A DNA stretch of 64,000 nt from Cohnella candidum (GTDB lineage: Bacteria > Bacillota > Bacilli > Paenibacillales > Paenibacillaceae): contig NZ_CP033433.1 of NCBI RefSeq assembly GCF_003713065.1, positions 3,225,001 to 3,289,000 of the forward strand, in the 5' to 3' direction. Of this stretch, positions 10,856 to 22,944 are shown piece after piece. How positions within the stretch are numbered: position 1 is the stretch's first letter; each line of letters begins with the position of its first letter. The notes beneath the pieces are model-generated. The model was not told the origin of the DNA, ran no database searches, and saw only the letters and a program-made list of their open reading frames with translations. The position numbers and the translations under genes were made by a program.

Positions 10856-11728
10856 TCACTTGATACCGGCAAAAGTCATCGTTTCCACGACTTTGCGCTG
10901 GATGAGGATGAACAACGCGATCGGCGGCAGCATCAGGATGACGGAAGCTGCCGATCCGGGCCCCGCCCTCAAAATCGGATCGCCCTTCGGAACGATCTGG
11001 TCGAGCGCCGCCCGCAGCGTTTTGAGGGATTCGCTGAAAATGAGGTCGGTCTGCGTGAAGTTCCACATCTGCGTGAACTGGAACAGGATGACCGTCATGA
11101 TCGCAGGCGCGGCATTCGGCAGAACGATGGCGAAAAAGGTCCGGAACTCGCTGGCGCCGTCGATTCTGGCCGCTTCGAGAATGGCGTCCGGCAGCTGCTC
11201 GATGAATTGCTTCATCAGGAACAGCCCAAGAGACAGGCCGATGCCGGGAAAGATCATCGCCGCGTACGTGTTGAGCAGCTTCGTCTCGCTCATGATGACG
11301 AACAGCGGCATGAAGGTGACGGCCGGCACGAACATGAGCCCCATCACGATGACGGAGAAAACGGCGTTTTTGCCCGGAAATTGATGTTTCGCCAGCGGAT
11401 AGGCGGCCATCGAAGAGAACAGCGCGTGGAACAGCGTTCCCGCCGTCGCCACGAACAGCGTGTTGAACAAGTACCGCGACAAGGGCACCCACATCGTCGA
11501 GGCCAGTTGATACAGCTCCCGGTAACTGTCGAACGTCGGCCGGGACACGGTAAACTTAGGCGGGAACTGGAAGAGCTCGTCGATCGGCTTGATCGAGTTG
11601 ATGAACGTGTAAATCAACGGCAGCGCCGACAGCAGCGCCAACACTCCGATGAAGGAAAAGACGATCGCGTTGCCGGTGTAGGAACGGCGCGCCTTGGATC
11701 CGGTTTTTTTGCGTAAAGCAGCCAGCAT
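10856..11728 (-). CDS. Carbohydrate ABC transporter permease, MalG type (second pair)
   Basis: A 290-aa permease with six predicted transmembrane helices, an EAA loop (ILEAARIDGASEFRTFFAI) and the GIK C-terminus. A strong AAGGAGG site precedes the ATG. It lies 22 bp after the MalF partner and 11 bp before the NHL/YIP1 gene. It belongs to the importer served by the 951-aa binding protein. Confidence 0.92.
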   Translation of the reverse strand: MLAALRKKTGSKARRSYTGNAIVFSFIGVLALLSALPLIYTFINSIKPIDELFQFPPKFTVSRPTFDSYRELYQLASTMWVPLSRYLFNTLFVATAGTLFHALFSSMAAYPLAKHQFPGKNAVFSVIVMGLMFVPAVTFMPLFVIMSETKLLNTYAAMIFPGIGLSLGLFLMKQFIEQLPDAILEAARIDGASEFRTFFAIVLPNAAPAIMTVILFQFTQMWNFTQTDLIFSESLKTLRAALDQIVPKGDPILRAGPGSAASVILMLPPIALFILIQRKVVETMTFAGIK

Positions 11729-11750: not shown

Positions 11751-12650
11751 TTACGATCCGACTTTGTGCAGCAGCTTTGTCGTAAGCCGGCTGGAGAACA
11801 CCATCATGAGGAACAGCACGACCGAAATCGCGGAGGTGTAGCCGAGCTCATAACGGATATTCAGATAGTCCCGCAAGTGGGTGACGATCGTCTCGGCGGC
11901 GTAATCCGTGCTTGGGAAACCGGCCAGCTCGATGGATACGTCCGCCACGCTGAAGGAAGCGACGATCTGCATGACGGCTCCGAACACCAACTGCGGGACC
12001 ATGGACGGCAGCGTAATGTACCACAGCTCCTGGAACCGGTTTTTGATCCCGTCCATGACGCCGGCTTCGTACAAGCTTTTGTCGATCGTTTGCAAACCCG
12101 CGATGAACGCCAGGAAGCTGATGCCGAGGCTGAGCCAAAGTTGGATGAGGATCAGGACTCCCATCATGTATTTGGGGTCGAGCAGCCAGGCGATCGGATG
12201 GTCAATGACGCCGAGGCGGATGAGGAACGAATTGACGTACCCGTATTCGTCCGGGCTGAACACCTGGAACCACATGGGATATACGGACGGCGCCGCGATC
12301 GCCGGGATGTAGAAGATCGTGGTGGCGATCGATCTCAGCGTCCGCGGCATGTCGTTGATCATCCACGCGACCAGGAAGCTGATCAGGTACCCGATCGGTC
12401 CGGTAACGAAGGCGAACAGCAGCGTGTTTTTAACGGCGATGATGAACACGTCGTCATCGAGGAACATACGGACGTAGTTGTGCCATCCGATGAACCGCGG
12501 CGCATCTACCATGCTGAAGTAGGTGAAGCCGAGAACGATGCAGATGATGACCGGCAAAATCGTGAATGCAAGGAAAAACAGCATATACGGAGTCATCAGC
12601 AAGTAACTTTCCTTGTGCTTCTTGACGGCCAGTTTCATGGCTCTGATCAT
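11751..12650 (-). CDS. Carbohydrate ABC transporter permease, MalF type (second pair)
   Basis: A 299-aa sugar permease with six predicted transmembrane helices and an EAA loop (LYEAGVMDGIKNRFQELWYI). Its ATG overlaps the TGA of the upstream binding-protein gene by 4 bp, indicating translational coupling. It forms the second permease pair of the locus with the gene downstream. Confidence 0.92.
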   Translation of the reverse strand: MIRAMKLAVKKHKESYLLMTPYMLFFLAFTILPVIICIVLGFTYFSMVDAPRFIGWHNYVRMFLDDDVFIIAVKNTLLFAFVTGPIGYLISFLVAWMINDMPRTLRSIATTIFYIPAIAAPSVYPMWFQVFSPDEYGYVNSFLIRLGVIDHPIAWLLDPKYMMGVLILIQLWLSLGISFLAFIAGLQTIDKSLYEAGVMDGIKNRFQELWYITLPSMVPQLVFGAVMQIVASFSVADVSIELAGFPSTDYAAETIVTHLRDYLNIRYELGYTSAISVVLFLMMVFSSRLTTKLLHKVGS

Positions 12651-15502
12651 CGTTTCACCCCAAACTCGATCCGCTTGCGCTCGATCTCTTCGTTGATTTG
12701 CTTATTCCAGTAGTTCAAGCTCTCGCGGGGATTCTTCCATTCGAACACGACGCCGCGGAATGCGTTGTCGAGGCTGCGGGTCGTATAGTAGCTGCCCGGC
12801 AGCTCAGGCACTTCCCGAACTTCCTTCCACTGTTCCAGAAGCGTCCTCTGTTCTTCCGTCCCCCATTTGCTCCGCCGGAACGCCTCCAGGTTGGCGGGCA
12901 GCTTGCGGCCGATCCGCCCCGTTTCGTTCTCCAGCTCCTTCGCGTACCGGCTCTGGATGTCCGCCGAGTTCCACCACTGCATGAACGTCCAGGCCGACGC
13001 CTGGTCCTTCGCGCTTTTCAGAATGATCGCCGATGTTCCTGTCGCCGCCGACGTTCGGTTGACGGAACCGTCCGGCTGTTTGATGCCCGGAATCGGCACC
13101 ATTTTCCAATTGCCCGCGATTTCCGGAGCGGCAACGGACAGCTGGTTGTACAGCTTGTAGGAGGCGATGACGACAGGCATCTGACCGGTCCGGAAACGGT
13201 AATAGTCGCTCTTATACAGCGGATAATCATAAAGCTTGTAGAAATCCGTCCAAGTCTTGAACGCTTCGGCTGCCTTCGGTTCGTCGAGCCGGGTCCGATC
13301 ATGGGCGTCGCTGTATAGGTTGATTCCGTTCTGCATGAGCAGCGACGGGAACAAGTTCAACGTGCCGATGCCCCGGTCTTTCAACTGGCCCGCGTCGAGA
13401 TTCTCATAAGGCAGCCCGATCTGGAGATTGTTGTTCTGCAGCACCGGAGCGATTTTCATCACGTCGTCCCAAGTTCGCGGCGGCTCCAATCCGAGATCCT
13501 TCAAAATGTCTTCACGATAAAACATCATGAAAAATTCCTGCTCGTCCGGCACCGCGTAAGTATGGCCCTCGAATCGGTAAGGCTCGAACGCCGAGGGCAT
13601 GTATTGTTTCTTCATGTCCTCGAAACCCGTCAGCGTATCGAGCGGGCTTAACGCTCCACGGATCGCCAAATCCATCGCTTCACCCCGGCGGGTGAACAGG
13701 TTGACGTCAGGCCCTTTGCCGGCCATCACCCCGACGACCAACGCGTTGCGGACCAGATTGACTTTCACCTGAATGCCGGTGGCGGGCGTGAAGGCTTCGT
13801 CGATCAACCGTTTCACTACGTACGCTTGGTCGCGTCCGGCTCCCACCCACACCTCGATCGTTTTGCCGCCGGCTTTCTCTTCCGTCCCGAGACTGTCGTA
13901 ATTTTCGAAAAAGGACCCCGCGAAGGAACGGATTTCGTGCACGAGCTTATCCGTGAAGTTCGCTTCCGCCCTCGGCCGCTCGGCCTTCGCGCCGGCCACG
14001 TAAATACGGTCCACCTCAAGAGGCTGGTAGCGGGCGTTGATGATCCAGTCCGACAGGCCGGCAACGTCGTTGATGTAGGTCTCCAGCTTCTTCGGGATCG
14101 AATCCGGCCGGTCGATGAACCCGTCCAGCTGGCGAGACAGCTGCAACAGCGCGCGGGAGCCTTGGTTCATCTGGCCGTTCATTTCCGTGAGCTGATCGGA
14201 TCGGGTTTTCATTTCGTCCCTCAGCGATTCGAGTGCCGGCAACAGACCCGGGATGCTTTTCTGGAGGTCGTAGTCCCGGTAGGGATCGGGCTTCACGCCC
14301 GTGATCATGATGATTTTCCGGTACTGGTCGTTCAGCTTGTAAACGATGTCCTGTACCGCCTGCAGAAACGGCGCCATCTCTCCGAGCGTCACTTCCATCT
14401 TCAGCTCGTGGGTCCCCTTGGTCAGGTAAACGAGAAACGGCTCCCCGGTGTCGTCACCCAGCTCCTTGATGTTCCAACCCGAACGGTTCGGAAAGCGGAC
14501 TTCGCTCAGTTCTTTAAACGGGACCTCTCCGTCGACATACACTTTTCGGGTCGAGAACGCGCCTTTCAGCTTGTTCTGGCGGTAGCGCACGCCGATCTTG
14601 TACGCGCCGTCCTCCGGGATTTCGAATTTCCATGATATCCATTGCCCGGCGATATCCCAGTTCGCCGCGCCGATCGTGTTTATGCGGATTTTAGTCGGAT
14701 GGTAAGGCGTGGTGAGAGGACTCGTACGGTCGACGGTCGGGAAGAGCCCCGAATCCGATTTCAGGTACGCATGTTCGGCTTCGATGCTCGCCACGGTCTC
14801 CTTCGCCCGGACGGTTTGCACCGCCGGTTTCAAGGCGGCCTTATATTCCGCATACGGCGCCGGGTCGACCGGTTTCTTCAGCAGCAAGTAATCCAGCAGC
14901 GCGGATTCCCGAATACCGGTGAGCCGTATGACGTGTCGTCCTTTCGACAGTTTCATCCGGAGATCGGAATCGCTTAAATCCTCCGCGCTTCGCACTTTCG
15001 ATTCCAGCCAAACGCCGGCTTCCGATTGCTTAGGTCTCAGATCGTTGCCGTTGTTGCGCCGAAGCGGTCCCGGCTCGTCTTTCCACGCGCGATTCAGGCG
15101 GAACGGCACCTGCCGCTCCGAGAGTTCCTTTCCGTCGACGGCGAGGCCGAATTCAAGATCCTGCCCCGTGCCTTCGAGCGGGAAGTATCCGAAAGAGAGC
15201 TCATACTCGGAATCTTCCGGCACGTCGACGTTCCACTGGACCGTTTGTCCTTCTTTCCATTCCAGTACGCCCCGGCGGCCTTCCCCTTCCGGCAGCAGGA
15301 CAGGGGCAGCGTTGTCGACGGAGGAAATCTCCGCGGCGCCGGCCACGATTCCGTCCTTCGGCATCGCCGCATTTTCCGCCGCGTATTCGGCAGCCGCCGC
15401 AGCCGGCTTTTCGCGGAAAGAGAACGCGACCGTTGCGCAGAGGATGAGAAGCGCGGCGAGCAGGCTTGCCGATGTCCAAATCCATATCCATTTCTTCTTC
15501 AC
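12647..15502 (-). CDS. Large solute-binding protein with N-terminal sugar-binding-like modules
   Basis: A 951-aa protein, about twice the usual size for this family. It has an N-terminal signal anchor (about residues 3-25, no proper lipobox). Two beta-sandwich segments resembling carbohydrate-binding modules follow (about 40-210 and 235-380), then a helical spacer (about 390-520), then a family 1 solute-binding domain (about 540-940). GTG at 15502 is preferred because GGGGG lies about 6 bases upstream; TTG at 15508 would overlap that site. The next gene, a permease, overlaps by 4 bp. It probably captures longer saccharides at the surface and hands them to the permease pair (inference). Confidence 0.88.
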   Translation of the reverse strand: MKKKWIWIWTSASLLAALLILCATVAFSFREKPAAAAAEYAAENAAMPKDGIVAGAAEISSVDNAAPVLLPEGEGRRGVLEWKEGQTVQWNVDVPEDSEYELSFGYFPLEGTGQDLEFGLAVDGKELSERQVPFRLNRAWKDEPGPLRRNNGNDLRPKQSEAGVWLESKVRSAEDLSDSDLRMKLSKGRHVIRLTGIRESALLDYLLLKKPVDPAPYAEYKAALKPAVQTVRAKETVASIEAEHAYLKSDSGLFPTVDRTSPLTTPYHPTKIRINTIGAANWDIAGQWISWKFEIPEDGAYKIGVRYRQNKLKGAFSTRKVYVDGEVPFKELSEVRFPNRSGWNIKELGDDTGEPFLVYLTKGTHELKMEVTLGEMAPFLQAVQDIVYKLNDQYRKIIMITGVKPDPYRDYDLQKSIPGLLPALESLRDEMKTRSDQLTEMNGQMNQGSRALLQLSRQLDGFIDRPDSIPKKLETYINDVAGLSDWIINARYQPLEVDRIYVAGAKAERPRAEANFTDKLVHEIRSFAGSFFENYDSLGTEEKAGGKTIEVWVGAGRDQAYVVKRLIDEAFTPATGIQVKVNLVRNALVVGVMAGKGPDVNLFTRRGEAMDLAIRGALSPLDTLTGFEDMKKQYMPSAFEPYRFEGHTYAVPDEQEFFMMFYREDILKDLGLEPPRTWDDVMKIAPVLQNNNLQIGLPYENLDAGQLKDRGIGTLNLFPSLLMQNGINLYSDAHDRTRLDEPKAAEAFKTWTDFYKLYDYPLYKSDYYRFRTGQMPVVIASYKLYNQLSVAAPEIAGNWKMVPIPGIKQPDGSVNRTSAATGTSAIILKSAKDQASAWTFMQWWNSADIQSRYAKELENETGRIGRKLPANLEAFRRSKWGTEEQRTLLEQWKEVREVPELPGSYYTTRSLDNAFRGVVFEWKNPRESLNYWNKQINEEIERKRIEFGVKR

Positions 15503-15543
15503 TGGCAACCCCCGTATTGCGACGTAAACAACCTACGCTTCCG

Positions 15544-15603
15544 GTTATATCAATTCCGGAGAGGAACTGATTTCACTTTGCTTGGGCTTCGGCTTGCAAT
15601 TTG
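15544..15603 (-). promoter_or_regulatory. Operator/promoter of second ABC importer operon
   Basis: Reading the minus strand, CAAATTG (start 15603) and CAAAGTGAAATC (start 15580) are direct half-sites 23 bp apart. TATAAC (start 15549) follows exactly 31 bp after the second half-site. The same spacing occurs ahead of the anchored GH32 gene. The second half-site takes the -35 position, as expected for a class II activator of the AraC type. Confidence 0.65.
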
Positions 15604-15622
15604 ATTTGGCTTTCATTCATCG

Positions 15623-17485
15623 TCATTCGACGAACACGTTGAGCGAAGCGCGAACCTTCCCGTCCTCGCTCGTCGCGGTCATTTCCGCTTTGCCCGGTTT
15701 CATCCCTTTGACCCGAACGCCGGTTTCGCCGGTTTCGCCGCTTCCGCCAACCGCCGCAACCGAAGGATCGCTGGAGCTCCAGTTCACCCGCTGGTCGGCC
15801 GGGAAGGGGACGACGGCGGTCTCGATCGGCTGCTCTTCTCCGGCTTTCAGATGTAAAATGCTGCGGCTGAGCAGGATGCGCAGCGGTTTCTTGGCGTCAG
15901 GGTCTTCGTCTCGCCAGACGGTGCGCATCGGGTAATAGGACGCATGGTTTAACGTGACGTCCCCATCCGCGAACAACCCGATATCATCGCTGGTCGGATC
16001 GGGAAAGACGATCGCGGACAACACGGCCTCCCCGTCGTTCGCGAACACCTCGACCGTCGTCTCGTCCACGAAAATCCGCAGCTTGATTTTGCCGTCCTTA
16101 GGAACGAGCGGCGCCGCCATCGCTTCGGCGAACCCCCCTTCGAAATCGGTCACGCCCGAATGGGAGCGGTCGAGCAAGAGAACGTTCATCTTCGGATCGT
16201 ACCGGATGACCGTTTCCTGGCCGCCTTCACCCGCCCTTACCTTCGCGCCGAAAGAATGCCCGCTGCCCGCATCGAACTCCGCCTCCAGCTCGTAGTTCGT
16301 TCCCTTGACCCCTTCCAGTGGATTCCGACCGGGCGACAGCGTCATTTTCTTCACCTTCCGCGGGTTGCCGCGCAACGTTTTCAGCTCTTCGATCGGCTCC
16401 TGAACGAGCCGGATTCCCTGGTCCGGGATCTTCCGGAGTTTCAGGACCCGGGGAATCGACATGTTGCCTTTCCAGACGCCTGTCGGCATCGCGAACGGAT
16501 ACCGCCAGTTCGACATCCATCCGAGCCATATTCGGCGTCCGTCTTCCTTCGGAATGTCCGAATACGAGACCGCCGCGTAGAAGTCTTTGCCATAGTCGGT
16601 CCACGACACGTTGGCTGGCCCGTTATCGTCCTTGAAGGTCGATCCGTCGAACGATCCGATGAAATATTGGGCTTTCGACCCTTTGGTCGCGGAATTGTTC
16701 CCGATGCTCACGGTAAGCACCCATTTTTTCTCCCCGCTGCCCTCAACCGGGAGCTCGAAAAGATCCGGACACTCCCAAACGGCCGCATGGGATCCGTGTC
16801 CCAGCCCGAATTCTCCGCTTCGCGTCCAATTTTTCAGATCGGGGGAACGGTAGAACCACACCTTCTGGTCCACGGATACGACCATGACCCACGATTTCGT
16901 CGCCTCATGCCAGAACACTTTCGGATCGCGGAAATCTTTGACGTTCGGGTTCGGGATCACCGGATTGCCCGCGTATTTCGTCCATGTCCGCCCTTTGTCG
17001 GCGCTGTAGGCGATGCTTTGGGATTGCACGCCGTTTTTGAAATGGGTGAAAATCGCGACCAAACCCGGTTTGCCGCCGAAGAAGCCCGTCGTATCGTTCC
17101 GGTCGACGACGGCGCTGCCGGACCAGATGTCGCCCAGGTCGTCCTTCGCGATTGCGAGAGGAAGCTGCTCCCAGTGCAGCAAATCCTTGCTTACCGCGTG
17201 CCCCCACTGCCCGCTGTGCTGATAGAACTGGTGATACTCCCCTTCGAAATACACCATGCCGTTCGGATCGCTCATGTTGCCCGTCTCGGGGGAAAGGTGG
17301 TATTGGGGGCGGAACTTCTCCGTGAAATAGGCCGGATCGGGACGATAAGCGAACCCCGTCGGCAATGCCGGTTCGTTTGCGCTCTCTTGGACGCGGGTGC
17401 CGTAGTAAATCGCCCCCGCGGCTGCAAGCAGCACGGCCGACGCCGCCACCGCTCCGATCTTCATTCGTTTGTGTCTGCTTCCCAT
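15623..17485 (-). CDS. Membrane-anchored GH32 fructan hydrolase with Ig-like tail
   Basis: A 620-aa GH32 enzyme. A basic N-terminus and hydrophobic segment (about residues 9-28) form a signal anchor, so the catalytic part faces outside. Catalytic motifs are MSDPNG with nucleophile Asp73, RDP at 186-188 and WEC with Glu238. The C-terminus (about 535-620) is a Big_2-like Ig domain (NWSSSDPSVAAV pattern), often a surface spacer or adhesion module. The start at 17485 has GGGGG 7 bases upstream; an earlier in-frame ATG has no ribosome site. The protein is a paralogue of the cytoplasmic enzyme at 1515-2966. It probably degrades levan or inulin outside the cell. Confidence 0.92.
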   Translation of the reverse strand: MGSRHKRMKIGAVAASAVLLAAAGAIYYGTRVQESANEPALPTGFAYRPDPAYFTEKFRPQYHLSPETGNMSDPNGMVYFEGEYHQFYQHSGQWGHAVSKDLLHWEQLPLAIAKDDLGDIWSGSAVVDRNDTTGFFGGKPGLVAIFTHFKNGVQSQSIAYSADKGRTWTKYAGNPVIPNPNVKDFRDPKVFWHEATKSWVMVVSVDQKVWFYRSPDLKNWTRSGEFGLGHGSHAAVWECPDLFELPVEGSGEKKWVLTVSIGNNSATKGSKAQYFIGSFDGSTFKDDNGPANVSWTDYGKDFYAAVSYSDIPKEDGRRIWLGWMSNWRYPFAMPTGVWKGNMSIPRVLKLRKIPDQGIRLVQEPIEELKTLRGNPRKVKKMTLSPGRNPLEGVKGTNYELEAEFDAGSGHSFGAKVRAGEGGQETVIRYDPKMNVLLLDRSHSGVTDFEGGFAEAMAAPLVPKDGKIKLRIFVDETTVEVFANDGEAVLSAIVFPDPTSDDIGLFADGDVTLNHASYYPMRTVWRDEDPDAKKPLRILLSRSILHLKAGEEQPIETAVVPFPADQRVNWSSSDPSVAAVGGSGETGETGVRVKGMKPGKAEMTATSEDGKVRASLNVFVE

Positions 17486-17522
17486 ATCGCAACCCCCGCG
17501 TCGAAATGTCGTCATGCGGCGA

Positions 17523-17582
17523 GTTTACCGGAAGCGGAGCGGATAAAGATTTCACTTTGTTCGGATATCGTCTTCCAATTTG
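17523..17582 (-). promoter_or_regulatory. Operator/promoter of anchored GH32 gene
   Basis: On the minus strand CAAATTG (start 17582) and CAAAGTGAAATC (start 17559) are 23 bp apart, and GTAAAC (start 17528) lies 31 bp after the second, at the -10 position. The two half-sites and their spacing are identical to those ahead of the importer operon at 15502. The -10 is weak, consistent with activator dependence. Confidence 0.62.
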
Positions 17583-17605
17583 GTCGCATCACGCATAAAA
17601 CAAAA

Positions 17606-17629
17606 AAGCCTCCGGATCCCCGGAGGCTT
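17606..17629 (-). terminator. Rho-independent terminator of kinase/regulator operon
   Basis: A perfect 10-bp stem (17606-17615 with 17620-17629) with a 4-base loop is followed on the minus strand by a T run. It ends the binding-protein/kinase/regulator operon just before the GH32 promoter. Confidence 0.9.
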
Positions 17630-17651
17630 CGTAAGCAACGTCCCTATTCGT

Positions 17652-19271
17652 TTACGCTTTGCTTTCGCCCGTCGCGTGCTGGTCCCTGTATTCTTTGGGA
17701 CTGACGCCGTAATGCTTCTTGAACGAGGTGCTGAAATAACTGGAACTGGAATAACCGACCAAAGTGGCGATATCCGTCAGCTTGAGCTCGTTCTCCCGAA
17801 GAAGCTGCTCTGCTTTCGTCAATCTCAGATTCGTGACGTAGTCGCTGAACGTCAAGCCCGCATTCTGTTTGAACAAGCTCGACAAATAGGTTTCGTTCAA
17901 ATGGAACATCTCCGCCAAGGACGAGAGGGTCAACTCATAAGAATAGTTCTCGTCCACGTATAAGCGGATCGCTTCGGCCAGCTTCTGGCCCCCGGAAAAC
18001 CTCGTTTTCCGCACCTCGCCCATGACCTTCTCCGCCATAAGGTGGAGCTGCTCCAGCACCTGTTCCCTGGATACGAAATCATTTACCGACATCTGGCAAT
18101 TCCATAAATACTGCTGCAGCGAGGAATCTCCCGCTTCGAATTTCTTGGCGACGGAGTGGAGGATCAGAATGATGCGCAGCGTCAGAAAAGTAAACGAAAA
18201 CATCGGCGTATCCCGATCCTCGCCGAATACATCTTTCAAATGCCTGGAGAACGCCCTCATATCCAGGCTTTCGATCGCGTTCACCAGTTTTCGTTCGACT
18301 TCCGGTTGAAAAGCGTTCGTCAACTCCGGTTGCCCCTGGCCTCCGGCCGGTCCTCGCACGGTCCTCTGGCTCCAGTCCAGTATGCTGGAGGCATAACCGT
18401 TTTTGAACTCCTTCAGGCTGTGAATGGATTCTCCGATCCCAAGGACGCAGTCCAACCTCAAATATTGCTTCACGCCGTTTTTAAACTCGTGAACGAATCG
18501 CGCCGCCCGCCCCTTGCTATCTATGCGCTCGGAATGAAGCAGCAGGAAGAATAACATGGATGGCCGGCTAACGTCCTGGAAACAGTAAATGTCCCCCCAA
18601 CGATTGGCCAGCTCCCGACCCAGCATCTGAAAAGAGAGCGCCAGCAAATCCATCCGGTCGTCCCATCCCTCCAACCGTCCGTCCGGTACCCGCATCTCGG
18701 CGGTCACGAACTGAGCATGAAGCCCGTCCATCGCCAAAGAGGTCAGCTGCAGCTGTTCCAGCCGTTCTTTCACCACGGTAATGCTGAGCCACTCGTTCTT
18801 CACCAATTGGAGAAGGAGTTGTTCCCGCTCTGCTTGAAGCCACTCGTCGCGCCTGATCCGGTCCCTTTGCTCTTCCTGTCTTCTGTGCCGGTCGCCGTCC
18901 AATTCTTTGGCGATCCGGGACAGCAGCTCCGACAGCTCGCTGCGGACGACCGGCTTCAGCAGGTAGTCCTTCGCTCCGTATTGGATGGCGGACTTCAAGT
19001 ATTCGAAGTCGGAGTACCCGGACAATACGACGGTTCTCAGCCTTGGGTAACGCTCATGGCAGGCTTTCATGAAGGAGATGCCGTCCATCTGAGGCATCCG
19101 GATATCGGAAATGACGAGATCCGGGAGCGGATAATCGCCCAGCAGACGAAGCGCCTCTTCCCCGTTCGCCGCCTCGAGAACGATCTGATACCCCGCTTCC
19201 GCCCAATTTATTTTCGCTTTGATGCTGTTGCGTACGCCCACTTCGTCATCGACGAGCATTACTTTGTACAC
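17652..19271 (-). CDS. YesN-type response regulator, AraC family
   Basis: A 539-aa two-component regulator. The N-terminal receiver (about 1-120) has the acidic pair in LVDDE and phospho-acceptor Asp in VISDIRMP. A middle region (about 150-410) of unknown role follows. The C-terminal AraC DNA-binding domain (about 430-530) has two helix-turn-helix motifs, including DIATLVGYSSSSYFSTSFKK. The GTG start has GGGGGTGA upstream. It follows its kinase with a 4-bp gap. It is the obvious candidate to bind the CAAATTG/CAAAGTG half-sites in front of the fructan operons and its own operon. Confidence 0.93.
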   Translation of the reverse strand: MYKVMLVDDEVGVRNSIKAKINWAEAGYQIVLEAANGEEALRLLGDYPLPDLVISDIRMPQMDGISFMKACHERYPRLRTVVLSGYSDFEYLKSAIQYGAKDYLLKPVVRSELSELLSRIAKELDGDRHRRQEEQRDRIRRDEWLQAEREQLLLQLVKNEWLSITVVKERLEQLQLTSLAMDGLHAQFVTAEMRVPDGRLEGWDDRMDLLALSFQMLGRELANRWGDIYCFQDVSRPSMLFFLLLHSERIDSKGRAARFVHEFKNGVKQYLRLDCVLGIGESIHSLKEFKNGYASSILDWSQRTVRGPAGGQGQPELTNAFQPEVERKLVNAIESLDMRAFSRHLKDVFGEDRDTPMFSFTFLTLRIILILHSVAKKFEAGDSSLQQYLWNCQMSVNDFVSREQVLEQLHLMAEKVMGEVRKTRFSGGQKLAEAIRLYVDENYSYELTLSSLAEMFHLNETYLSSLFKQNAGLTFSDYVTNLRLTKAEQLLRENELKLTDIATLVGYSSSSYFSTSFKKHYGVSPKEYRDQHATGESKA

Positions 19272-19275
19272 TTCG

Positions 19276-21057
19276 TCACCCCCGTACGATAGGCAGATCC
19301 AACGTCATCGCCGTTCCCTCGCCCGGTTTCGAATCCAATTGGAACCGCAAGGAATCCCCGTACGAAAGCCTACAGCGGGACAGAACGTTTCGCAGCCCTA
19401 TGCTGTAACCTTCGCTGTTCAGTATGCTCGCAGATTCGCTTGCGCGGACCTCCGCCATAAGGTCGCGAACCAACTCGGCCGACATTCCGATCCCGTTGTC
19501 GCGAACCGTCAACCGGAGCCGGTCGTCTTCCAAGGCGGTCGTCACGGAGACCACGGCAGCGCCGTCCTTTTCCAAACTGTATTTAACGGCGTTCTCGATG
19601 AGCGGCTGCAGGATGAATTTCGGGATCCGAAGACGGTCGGCCGCGGGGTCCTCTTCCATCGTGACGGTCAGTTTATCTCCGTATCGAAGCTTAAGGATAA
19701 ACAGGTAGTCGCGCAAGTAGTCCGTTTCTTCTTTCACGCGGACGAGGTCGTTGTTCAGATTCAGCGAATACCGCATCATTTTGCCGAGCGCTTCCGTCGC
19801 GTCCATGACGAGGTCCTCCCGTTTCATGGCCGCAAGCCCGCTGATGATCTCCAGCGTATTATTGTAGAAATGCGGGTTGATTTGCAGAAGCAGCGCTTTG
19901 TACTCGGCGTTTTTGCGCCGCATGTTCGTTTCGAACTCCGTCTCGATGAGATACCTCAGCCGGTCGGTCATCCTCTCGAATACCCGCGTGACGAAGCCGA
20001 CTTCGCTATGGCCGCGGCGGACTCGCGGCATCATTTTGACGGCCGCGCCGAATTCCCCTCGTTCAACGTGCTTCATCGCCCTCGCCATCGCGCTGAGCGG
20101 TTTCGTGATGCCGGAGGAAATCCAGAAAGCGACGATGACGACGACCAGCAGCAGGGCGGCGCTTACAAGCAGCAGCGTCTGCCGGATGTTGCCGATCTGC
20201 CGGTACAATTCAACCTTCGGCACCTCGCCGACGATCATCCAGTCCTGGTCGGGCAGCTTCCGGAAGAACACCAAATACCGTACGCCCTCCCGCTGTATCG
20301 GGATGATGCCGCTCGTCTGTTCCGAGTACTGGGTTTGAATGCTGGCCAAGCCGCTTTGCACGATCTCCCGGTTTCCTCCGAAATCTTGGCCGAGCACGCT
20401 CTTCCCTTCGAGGCTGAGCAGGAACACTCTGCCCGTCTCCCCGAACCGGATTTTCTCGATCGCGTCCTTCAGCACGTCCGTCGGATAATTGATTTTGACG
20501 AAACCGACCTCTCTCAGAGACTGCAGGTTCACGAGGGGCAGCAGGAAACTGTTTACTTCCCGGGCGGTCATGATCAGGTCTGCCTGATCGGGATCTTTGT
20601 GGGCATTCGTCCAACGGATGTTTTTCTGTTTGTATTGGGAATACCATTCGCTTAGCAAATAGCTGTTGTCCTGCGTCCACAAGCCGCCGGTTCTTTCCGT
20701 GAACGCGCTGATCGTGATTCCGTTCGAATTGTTAACCGCATAGGACGAGAAGAACTCCCGCATTCTTTGCTTGGCCAGCACGCGATCGGCTTGGGTCGTA
20801 TCCGCGTTCAACTGCATGGCGGTCCATTCTTGCGTCGTTCGATTGCTCATGACCTGGGTACCGATATCTTCCACCTGCTTCAGCAGCGTAGCGACGTGGG
20901 ATGCGAACTGGTCGATCGTCTGGGTGGTCGACGTCTCGATCTGTCGTTGAAGCAGCTTGCCCGATTCATTGCTCAGAATAAAGATGCCCGCGGTAAACGG
21001 CACAATGAGTAAGACGGAAAATATCAGCATCAATCGGCTTCGCAAGGAGTAGAACAT
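19276..21057 (-). CDS. YesM-type sensor histidine kinase
   Basis: A 593-aa membrane kinase. The first transmembrane segment is at about residues 9-29, an extracellular sensor of roughly 250 residues follows (Cache-like by layout), the second membrane segment is near 285-305, then HAMP. The His-kinase region has phospho-acceptor His in QINPHFYNNTLE; most family members have HFLYNTLE. The ATP-binding domain carries DNGIGM. An AGGTGA site precedes the ATG. It lies between a binding protein and its response regulator in one operon, and probably senses the extracellular sugar or the loaded binding protein (inference). Confidence 0.92.
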   Translation of the reverse strand: MFYSLRSRLMLIFSVLLIVPFTAGIFILSNESGKLLQRQIETSTTQTIDQFASHVATLLKQVEDIGTQVMSNRTTQEWTAMQLNADTTQADRVLAKQRMREFFSSYAVNNSNGITISAFTERTGGLWTQDNSYLLSEWYSQYKQKNIRWTNAHKDPDQADLIMTAREVNSFLLPLVNLQSLREVGFVKINYPTDVLKDAIEKIRFGETGRVFLLSLEGKSVLGQDFGGNREIVQSGLASIQTQYSEQTSGIIPIQREGVRYLVFFRKLPDQDWMIVGEVPKVELYRQIGNIRQTLLLVSAALLLVVVIVAFWISSGITKPLSAMARAMKHVERGEFGAAVKMMPRVRRGHSEVGFVTRVFERMTDRLRYLIETEFETNMRRKNAEYKALLLQINPHFYNNTLEIISGLAAMKREDLVMDATEALGKMMRYSLNLNNDLVRVKEETDYLRDYLFILKLRYGDKLTVTMEEDPAADRLRIPKFILQPLIENAVKYSLEKDGAAVVSVTTALEDDRLRLTVRDNGIGMSAELVRDLMAEVRASESASILNSEGYSIGLRNVLSRCRLSYGDSLRFQLDSKPGEGTAMTLDLPIVRG

Positions 21058-21065
21058 AAGGTCAC

Positions 21066-22412
21066 CTATTGGGACTGGGACAGCATTTGCGCATAGTCCC
21101 GGTCGATTTTCCGGATCGCCGTTTCAACGGTCTCGTCCAAATCTTTCTTGCCGATCGTAACGTCTTCGAACACCTTGTTGATCGCTTCCGACATTTGCGG
21201 AAAGATCGGCGTGACGGGACGCGGGCGTCCGAACTTCTGGTTCTGGACGACGAAAATGTTTTTCGGATATTTGTTTAACTCCGGGAATTGCAGAGCTGCG
21301 GAATACCGGGCGGGAATATCGTTCGTGATGGAACAATACATCACTTGGCCTTCGGGCCCGGTCACCCAATTCACGAAATTCCAGGCTTCCTCGGCGTACT
21401 TGCTTCGGGATGAAATTCCAAGCGCCCAACTTCCGTTCGCGACCGCCTGTCTCGTTTCCTTCGGCAGCGGAGCGATGTCGTAATCCCTTCCCAATTTGAA
21501 ATCCGGGAATTTCTCCGCAAAATAGGAGAGCGACCACGAACCTTCGATCGTCATGCCGAGATACCCGTTGGGAAAGGGATCCGCCGGATACTCGAGAGCG
21601 GAAACCTTGTATTTGTTATACAAGTCGGAGTAAAAGCGCAGCGCTTTTTTCGTTTGCGGGGAATCCAGGTACCCTCTTGCCGTGGAGCCGTCCGGGCTCA
21701 TGACCTCTCCGCCGAATTGCCAAATGATCGGGTACTTGAAATAGGCCGTGGCTCCCGCGTTCTGGAAGCCTTGAGCCGGATCGATGCCATACACGCCTTT
21801 CGACGGATCCGTCAGCTTCCGCGCCGCTTCCAGCACCTGATCCCATGTCCAGGGCATCTCCGGGTCCGCGGACGGGAATGGGATTCCTTTCTCTTCGAAC
21901 ATCTTCCGATTATAGAACAAAGCGATGGATGATTCGTTCAGCGGCGCCATGTATACTTCGTTCTTATACGTATAGGTAGCCAGCGTCGACGCCGGTATAT
22001 CGTCCATCCGGCCGTCTTTTCGCATATAGGAAGTCAGCGGGAGCAGCGCTCCCGCATGGGCGAAAGACGCGACGTTGGAGGCGTCAAGCGCCATGATGTC
22101 CGGAAAATTGCCGGAAGCGATCGACGTGCGCAGCTTCGTGTCGTAGTCGGCGTAAGGAATCAAAGTCATGTCGATCGTGATTTCCGGATGTTTTTCCAGG
22201 TAAGCGGATACCAATTTTTCGTAGGCTTTATTCTCCGATTCGTTACCTGAATTCCTCCAGAACGTTAGCGTAATCTTGGCATTGCTAGTGATTGTCGAGC
22301 GGTCGGAAGGTCGGTTTGTTGAATCCGTCTTGTCCGTTCCGTTTCCGTAGCAGGCGGATAAAAGAAAAACGATCGCCAGAACGCATAGTTTCAACCCGTT
22401 TGGCTTGAACAA
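21066..22412 (-). CDS. Solute-binding lipoprotein of the two-component operon
   Basis: A 448-aa family 1 solute-binding protein with a lipoprotein signal (lipobox LSAC around residue 21) and sequence typical of sugar binding proteins. The start is TTG at 22412, preceded by a purine-rich GGGGCAGG stretch. No permease follows it; instead the sensor kinase begins 8 bp downstream. This suggests a sensory rather than purely transport role, or sharing of the permeases encoded downstream. Both are inference. Confidence 0.88.
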   Translation of the reverse strand: MFKPNGLKLCVLAIVFLLSACYGNGTDKTDSTNRPSDRSTITSNAKITLTFWRNSGNESENKAYEKLVSAYLEKHPEITIDMTLIPYADYDTKLRTSIASGNFPDIMALDASNVASFAHAGALLPLTSYMRKDGRMDDIPASTLATYTYKNEVYMAPLNESSIALFYNRKMFEEKGIPFPSADPEMPWTWDQVLEAARKLTDPSKGVYGIDPAQGFQNAGATAYFKYPIIWQFGGEVMSPDGSTARGYLDSPQTKKALRFYSDLYNKYKVSALEYPADPFPNGYLGMTIEGSWSLSYFAEKFPDFKLGRDYDIAPLPKETRQAVANGSWALGISSRSKYAEEAWNFVNWVTGPEGQVMYCSITNDIPARYSAALQFPELNKYPKNIFVVQNQKFGRPRPVTPIFPQMSEAINKVFEDVTIGKKDLDETVETAIRKIDRDYAQMLSQSQ

Positions 22413-22450
22413 ATGACCTGCCCCTTCGCAACGCTGTAATTGGTGAAGGT

Positions 22451-22510
22451 ATTATATCATCTTCAGGAAGATCGGACTTCTACTTTGCTCACATTCGATG
22501 TTTAAAAATG
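22451..22510 (-). promoter_or_regulatory. Promoter of binding-protein/kinase/regulator operon
   Basis: TATAAT (start 22456 on the minus strand) lies exactly 31 bp after CAAAGTAGAAG (start 22487), the same arrangement as in the two fructan operons. The upstream half-site at the 23-bp position reads CATTTTT and is only a weak match. A recognisable -35 hexamer is missing. Confidence 0.55.
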
Positions 22511-22538
22511 ATTGGAAAACAGCGAAGCACAAACAAAA

Positions 22539-22576: not shown

Positions 22577-22662
22577 TGGTGCGGTCGAGAGGACTCGAAC
22601 CTCCACGAGATTGCTCCCGCCAGCCCCTCAAGCTGGTGCGTCTGCCATTCCGCCACGACCGC
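22577..22662 (-). tRNA. tRNA-Leu (anticodon GAG)
   Basis: An 86-base cloverleaf with a long variable arm, anticodon loop TTGAGGG, T-loop GGTTCGAGTCC and an encoded CCA end (22577-22579). Confidence 0.95.
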
Positions 22663-22707
22663 ATATTTGGTTTGTCGTCCGATCCAGAGTGAAATCGGAG
22701 TAAAAAC

Positions 22708-22783
22708 TGGTGAGCCATGAAGGACTCGAACCTTCGACACCCTGATTAAAAGTCAGGTGCTCTACCAACTGAGCTAATGGCTC
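22708..22783 (-). tRNA. tRNA-Lys (anticodon TTT)
   Basis: A 76-base cloverleaf with acceptor GAGCCAT/ATGGCTC, anticodon loop CTTTTAA and encoded CCA. It is in the same transcript as the Glu and Leu tRNAs. Confidence 0.95.
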
Positions 22784-22786
22784 GCA

Positions 22787-22861
22787 TGGTGACCCGTAGG
22801 GGATTCGAACCCCTGTTACCTCCGTGAAAGGGAGGTGTCTTAACCCCTTGACCAACGGGCC
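22787..22861 (-). tRNA. tRNA-Glu (anticodon TTC)
   Basis: A 75-base cloverleaf with anticodon loop CTTTCAC and encoded CCA. The acceptor stem has one G-U pair at position 2-71. First gene of its tRNA operon. Confidence 0.95.
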
Positions 22862-22915: not shown

Positions 22916-22944
22916 ATTATATCTGAATCCCAAGGCGAAGGCAA
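22916..22944 (-). promoter_or_regulatory. Sigma-A promoter of tRNA-Glu-Lys-Leu
   Basis: On the minus strand TTGCCT (22939-22944) and a perfect TATAAT (22916-22921) are separated by 17 bp, about 55 bp before tRNA-Glu. Confidence 0.82.

Follow-up and report, generated by a model that had tools for sequence, protein, structure and literature searches.

Gene organization of the locus

The window analysed here, a 64,000-nucleotide stretch of the Cohnella candidum genome to whose first letter all positions refer, carries on its minus strand a sugar-utilization locus in which three promoters share a predicted operator, a direct repeat with a period of 23 bp that is followed, at an almost constant distance, by a −10-like element. 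In order of transcription, the locus encodes a solute-binding protein (SBP), a YesM-type histidine kinase, a YesN-type response regulator, a fructan hydrolase of glycoside hydrolase family 32 (GH32), a large lipoprotein and two ABC permeases. The SBP (21066–22412, minus strand, as are all genes and sites of the locus given below; PF01547, E = 9.5e-48) is a lipoprotein and the likely sugar sensor, and its relatives of solved structure include the arabino-oligosaccharide-binding protein 6rjy. The kinase (19276–21057) has His_kinase, dCache_1, HAMP and HATPase_c domains, the dCache domain being extracellular, whereas the regulator (17652–19271), which is the proposed binder of the operators, is assigned from its Response_reg domain, its AraC-type DNA-binding domain (HTH_18) and its orthologs; its solved-structure relatives include YesN (3lsg). 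The gaps between these three genes are only 8 and 4 bases; together with the domain assignments, this places an SBP, a sensor kinase and an AraC-type response regulator in one operon, i.e. a three-component SBP–YesM–YesN system, and bears out the initial annotation, which had located the regulator within one of the operons that carry the repeat.

The GH32 enzyme (15623–17515; Glyco_hydro_32N, E = 4e-88) also possesses a Big_2 domain. It is followed by the lipoprotein (12647–15508), which contains a solute-binding domain (SBP_bac_8, E = 2.2e-22), and by the permeases (11751–12650 and 10856–11728), each with a BPD_transp_1 domain. Within the 953 residues of the lipoprotein, a weak CBM6-like stretch, under the Pfam cut-off, is fused to the solute-binding domain, which is an unusual architecture for a subunit of a transporter.

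Three predicted operators and their promoters

The operator of the sensor operon (22476–22515) has its distal half, CCAATCATTTTTAAACA, at 22499–22515 and its proximal half, GTGAGCAAAGTAGAAGT, at 22476–22492; it scores 17.4 bits against the matrix described below and occupies the same place in orthologous loci. That of GH32 (17548–17587) comprises GCGACCAAATTGGAAGA (distal, 17571–17587) and CCGAACAAAGTGAAATC (proximal, 17548–17564) and scores 32.8 bits, and that of the lipoprotein/ABC operon (15569–15608) comprises CAAATCAAATTGCAAGC (distal, 15592–15608) and CCAAGCAAAGTGAAATC (proximal, 15569–15585) and scores 32.3 bits. The −10 elements of the sensor operon (TATAAT, 22451–22456) and of the lipoprotein/ABC operon (TATAAC, 15544–15549) both have TG at the extended −10 position. 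The −35 slots of the three promoters read AAGTCC, AATCAG and AATCTT, none of which is consensus.

At all three promoters, CAAAGT(G/A) had been noted with a −10-like hexamer exactly 31 bp downstream, and these letters are indeed found at 15544–15580, 17523–17559 and 22451–22487. The distance holds for the TATAAT and TATAAC promoters, but at GH32 the hexamer first noted, GTAAAC (17523–17528), is a poor one, and the better TAAACT (17522–17527) lies 32 bp downstream. The −10 of GH32 is probably TAAACT at 17527, rather than GTAAAC, because it fits TAnnnT at an offset where 21 of 118 non-redundant sites have this motif. Moreover, as the listed GH32 start at 17515 sits only ~7 bases past this element, translation more likely begins at the in-frame ATG at 17485. 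The proposed second half-site, CAAATTG, is present 23 bp upstream in two of the sites, but it is only a portion of the half-site: a half of ~17 bp is conserved in the 118 sites, which rules out the 7-mer as the complete unit. At the third site, the letters CATTTTT were correctly read but do not represent plain degeneracy, as the distal half of the SBP site, CATTTTTAAA, resembles a form, ATTTT(g)AAA, that is frequent at orthologous SBP promoters.

Across the 118 non-redundant sites (from 224 in total), the half-site takes the form CCGAnnAWWTTGAAAnT and is present twice, 23 bp apart, giving a direct repeat with a period of about two helical turns. Within each half, there are two boxes roughly one helical turn apart, which would match the pair of helix-turn-helix units in an AraC-type domain. 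A TAnnnT motif starts at offset 53 in 90 of the 118 sites and at offset 54 in 21, together 111 by count of the motif, although a single site can contain it at both; these positions lie beyond the matrix, which extends only to offset 37. The extended −10 TG is seen in 67 of the 118. The proximal half is adjacent to a −35 slot that lacks a consensus −35, with the −10 at a fixed distance, and the arrangement is, therefore, that of class II promoters, in agreement with the AraC-type activator layout originally suggested. A search for cre elements, the sites of CcpA, gave six matches at up to two mismatches in the window against 9.6 expected, with none between 3789 and 52763; in view of this lack of cre matches at the three promoters, we reject their control by CcpA.

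The pattern CAAATTG-N16-CAAAGTG has two exact matches in the 5.29-Mb genome, both at the locus, and the remaining 14 of the 16 matches listed carry one or two mismatches. As a search tool for other genomes, the pattern of the initial annotation failed: in 58 related loci, at up to two mismatches, it gave seven gene-strand matches at a gap of 16 and no peak. Because it is too specific to its own genome, it was replaced by a matrix built from 47 non-redundant sites of 86 from other genomes (88 kept in all), six of the 47 being from sister YesN loci. After the three operators, no position in the window scores more than 4.4, and 10.6 Mb of simulated Markov sequence reach at most 13.1. Additionally, a longer profile of operator plus promoter, R1, was built from 41 of the 47 sites, leaving out the sister YesN loci, and was thus trained on regulator loci. 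In the C. candidum genome, it returned the lipoprotein site (E = 3.3e-6) and the GH32 site (E = 6.3e-6), whereas the next matches elsewhere had E values of 1.06 and 1.59. By both the exact pattern and the profile, the site is, in this genome, confined to the present locus rather than scattered over random intergenic positions.

Conservation of the predicted operator in related loci

A match to the regulator at E ≤ 1e-90 occurs in 64 of 394 genomes of the family; one genome searched with the regulator gave 173 first-look candidates. We fetched and oriented 58 stretches (57 other loci and that of the window itself), many of which keep the SBP–kinase–regulator order followed by GH32. Their upstream regions contain 16 pairs of half-sites (at up to two mismatches) at a spacing of 23, as against three at all other spacings from 15 to 30, the half-site letters in this count having been taken from sites already seen and two of the 16 pairs being the window's own. 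The matrix site is present at 33 of the 34 orthologous SBP promoters compared (the exception is L072), and many of these read ATTTT(g)AAA in the distal half; this form, together with the presence of matrix sites at these promoters, rules out mere decay as the explanation of the third site. In two loci, an additional site is found between the SBP and kinase genes (L072, position 5624, and L090, position 3122), which suggests a second autoregulatory promoter.

The site was then sought in held-out loci. Of the 80 loci kept, 20 were already in training, and the new ones were split by rank into 20 close and 40 distant. All 20 close loci, from Paenibacillaceae, have a site scoring above 20, with 41 on the gene strand, none on the other and 0.4 in simulation. 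The distant loci, whose regulators are 38–43% identical and which are mostly from Bacillaceae (with one Paenibacillus locus, L255), have such a site in 35 of 40 cases, with 46 on the gene strand versus two on the other and 2.4 in simulation; the five without one are L247, L250, L264, L268 and L269, some of which are on short contigs. No site was found at any of 20 control loci of YesN paralogs (27–32% identity, two from the C. candidum genome; best score 10.3), these being ~10.6–11.6 kb long, a length below that of most held-out loci, and all belonging to the genus of the window. Conservation in orthologous loci, as predicted initially, is thus well borne out.

Sister systems, whose regulators are ~31–40% identical, have a site above 20 at eight of 13 loci, six of these being training sites; at six of the eight, the site is upstream of the kinase gene, and at the other two it is upstream of a permease. 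At six sister loci (L076, L078, L079, L081, L082 and L182), a like operator stands upstream of the system's own kinase gene with no GH32 nearby, a hint that the operator grammar is shared. As expected, there is no site in the stretches around four lone regulators whose recognition helices are altered (L123, L125, L126 and L129). None of the four has a kinase or SBP match nearby, as if they were decaying or repurposed copies.

The site across genomes and its link to GH32

With the R1 profile, sites at E ≤ 1e-5 are found in 42 of the 394 genomes, 40 of which are among the 44 with an orthologous regulator, and 348 genomes have neither, in a table that is partly circular, R1 having been trained on regulator loci, and uncorrected for kinship. 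The 44 comprise 42 full-length matches of at least 43% identity plus the partial G177 and G369, and leave out six truncated copies of 43–49% identity (G181, G182, G185, G203, G208 and G210), as well as weaker sister systems. The two strong-site genomes outside the 44, G352 and G017, carry orphan sites (L164, 10050, plus strand; L165, 9929, minus strand), that of G017 being ahead of a kinase with a partner regulator that differs in its DNA-binding helix.

Outside the training loci, there are 21 matches at E ≤ 1e-3, and the 19 examined are all of these except G177:C577 and G104. Eight of the 19 lie ahead of a GH32 gene or a transporter–GH32 operon (G352, G331:C29, G326:C94, G027:C16, G300:C10, G374:C14, G326:C129 and G369:C33), four of them with open frames of at least 1069 codons. 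One is ahead of a large lipoprotein (G374:C33), three belong to regulator loci or border on them (G369 twice and G015:C48) and one is ahead of the unrelated kinase in G017. The matches G027:C16 and G374:C33 share a contig with their own regulator, at a distance of ~14–21 kb; the others are elsewhere or in a regulator-less genome. The site, therefore, marks GH32 genes in relatives even when these do not adjoin the regulator, and the predicted targets, both in the window and at these eight outside matches, are GH32 genes and sugar transporters, as a fructan regulon would have. In two loci (L171, 7511, and L180, 8678), an operator-like match falls within a conserved coding frame, in its 3′ part, and seems to represent a class of false positives of the matrix.

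Transcript boundaries and flanking features

A terminator-like hairpin with an 11-pair stem (17605–17630) lies 3′ of the regulator gene, and another (22565–22535) precedes the operator of the sensor operon, the first encountered in the direction of transcription; both are among the longest stems on the strand, albeit that such hairpins are, as a class, statistically weak (25 in the window versus 21.8 in shuffles). Given these two hairpins, the sensor operon and GH32 are probably transcribed separately. Three tRNA genes (Leu-GAG, Lys-TTT and Glu-TTC; 22577–22861) end directly upstream of the sensor-operon operator, and a promoter-like TATAAT is found near them at 22916. Past the permeases, down to position 25, there are more genes for large and transporter-like proteins, and then two additional GH32-like genes on the same strand (1515–2966 and 25–1527; 54% and 36% identity to the GH32 of the locus); for these, the matrix scan of the window found no operator of their own above 5 bits.

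Relationship to known systems

In CuaDSR of Ruminiclostridium cellulolyticum, the regulator recognizes a region upstream of the transporter operon, and, as in the window, genes for an SBP, a kinase and a regulator adjoin those for an ABC transporter and a sugar-cleaving enzyme; however, that system serves cellobiose, not fructan, and the cuaDSR operon is described as constitutive, whereas the sensor operon of the window bears the site itself (PMC5663094, PMC10384115). Gene order and the domain make-up of the sensor modules beside sugar ABC transporters are likewise similar in AraPST and XynDC of Geobacillus, the latter named a two-component system (PMC4194401). These differ in serving arabinan and xylan rather than fructan, the likeness being one of gene order and domains. 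In Caldicellulosiruptor bescii, sites consisting of tandem repeats separated by large spacers were predicted ahead of the promoter elements for three of five AraC-type two-component systems and were read as activator sites; the tandem arrangement ahead of promoters is shared with the window, but the sugars and the bacteria are others (PMC8579813). The YesN and RR07 proteins of Streptococcus pneumoniae are also YesN-type regulators, albeit with different targets: for YesN, the authors propose a direct repeat containing a conserved AATTC as candidate motif but call it unclear, and yesMN is positively autoregulated on overexpression (PMC11034029). Three-component sugar systems have already been described, and tandem AraC-type sites predicted; for the well-defined operator reported here, or for a fructan YesMN system in these bacteria, we found no paper in the open-licence literature, which was represented mostly by listings and the beginnings of abstracts.

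A model for regulation and its alternatives

We consider it highly probable (roughly 0.86) that the three sites are activator operators of the neighbouring YesN-type regulator, in an SBP–YesM–YesN system for fructan use that includes its own operon among its targets. The sites, their spacing, their conservation and the association with GH32 are observed; binding, activation, dependence on phosphorylation and the ligand are all inferred from sequence. According to this model, the surface SBP and the YesM-type kinase would sense a fructan-derived sugar outside the cell, and the kinase would phosphorylate the regulator. Two protomers of the latter would bind head to tail on the two ~17-bp half-sites, with the 23-bp period. 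The proximal half abuts a −35 slot without a consensus −35, ahead of an often extended −10, and RNA polymerase would, for this reason, be recruited as at class II AraC-type promoters. The targets would be the sensor operon itself, the GH32 hydrolase and the lipoprotein/ABC operon. The autoregulated fructan regulon that was initially proposed finds support in the site of the regulator's own operon, kept at nearly all orthologous SBP promoters, and in the link to GH32 elsewhere.

A number of observations weigh against this model. Autoregulation rests on the weakest of the three sites: the SBP site has a low score, its proximal half is without the conserved C, and the R1 profile does not list it in its own genome, even at E = 10. 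Two of the 42 strong-site genomes (G352 and G017) are without an orthologous regulator. Conversely, four of the 44 regulator genomes (G156, G220, G229 and G319) have no site at E 1e-5 (that of G319 has 4.5e-5), a number that rises from four to 10 if the six genomes with truncated copies are added; L114 (= L220), a lone regulator whose first recognition helix is intact, also lacks a site. Six of the 19 outside matches look spurious (G064, G090, G102, G152, G201 and G295), having no GH32 nearby and being partial or in coding sequence, and the held-out loci contain close relatives of one another, so they are not independent. Finally, no GH32 was found in the stretch at the twelve sister-system loci covered by the GH32 comparison. 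As sister systems have similar sites with no GH32 in the vicinity, the operator is not exclusive to fructan use and, to judge from these loci, is that of a YesN subfamily of broader range.

The orphan sites in G352 and G017 and the like operators at sister YesN systems would also be explained if the operators were real but bound by another transcription factor, encoded elsewhere or a YesN paralog. We regard this as unlikely, as held-out loci of distant genera have in common that the site lies near the regulator gene, 40 genomes contain both a strong site and an orthologous regulator, and the lone regulators with altered helices are without sites. It is more improbable still that the regulator, once bound, acts chiefly as a repressor or does no more than adjust promoters that depend on a different activator: AraC-type proteins can repress, but nothing here supports this directly, and a site upstream of the −10, with its proximal half at a −35 slot devoid of consensus and the −10 at a fixed offset, has the layout of an activator site. 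Indeed, the similar tandem sites of Caldicellulosiruptor were taken as activator sites (PMC8579813). As for chance resemblance or an AT-rich promoter background, the CAAATTG-N16-CAAAGTG pattern is common in the window at three mismatches (seven found versus 4.0 expected), and AT-rich loci yield some simulated matches above 20, as in the distant set; nevertheless, the rarity in the genome, matrix scores above those of simulation, single spacing, strand bias, fixed −10 offset and conservation in the held-out test contradict this explanation, which we regard as effectively ruled out.

Beyond the window, we favour, with less confidence than the assignment of the three operators, the existence of a fructan regulon common to Paenibacillaceae and Bacillaceae, in which one YesN subfamily reads a tandem CCGAnnAWWTTGAAAnT with a 23-bp period and a locked −10. 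It would control its own sensor operon and the transporters and hydrolases nearby, as well as, in several species, large secreted GH32 enzymes whose genes lie at other loci, and sister YesN systems would share the layout but differ in its letters. Paenibacillus-like bacteria encode very large numbers of YesN-type regulators, and the DNA site is, to our knowledge, known for few of them. With its predicted operator defined, its promoter geometry fixed and its likely targets listed, this regulator can be tested directly and offers a handle on its relatives. In Bacillus subtilis, fructan control runs through LevR and SacT/SacY; if our reading is true, the Bacillales would possess a further route of fructan control, distinct from these, and the operator grammar could serve to identify the targets of many YesN-type regulators whose role is unknown.

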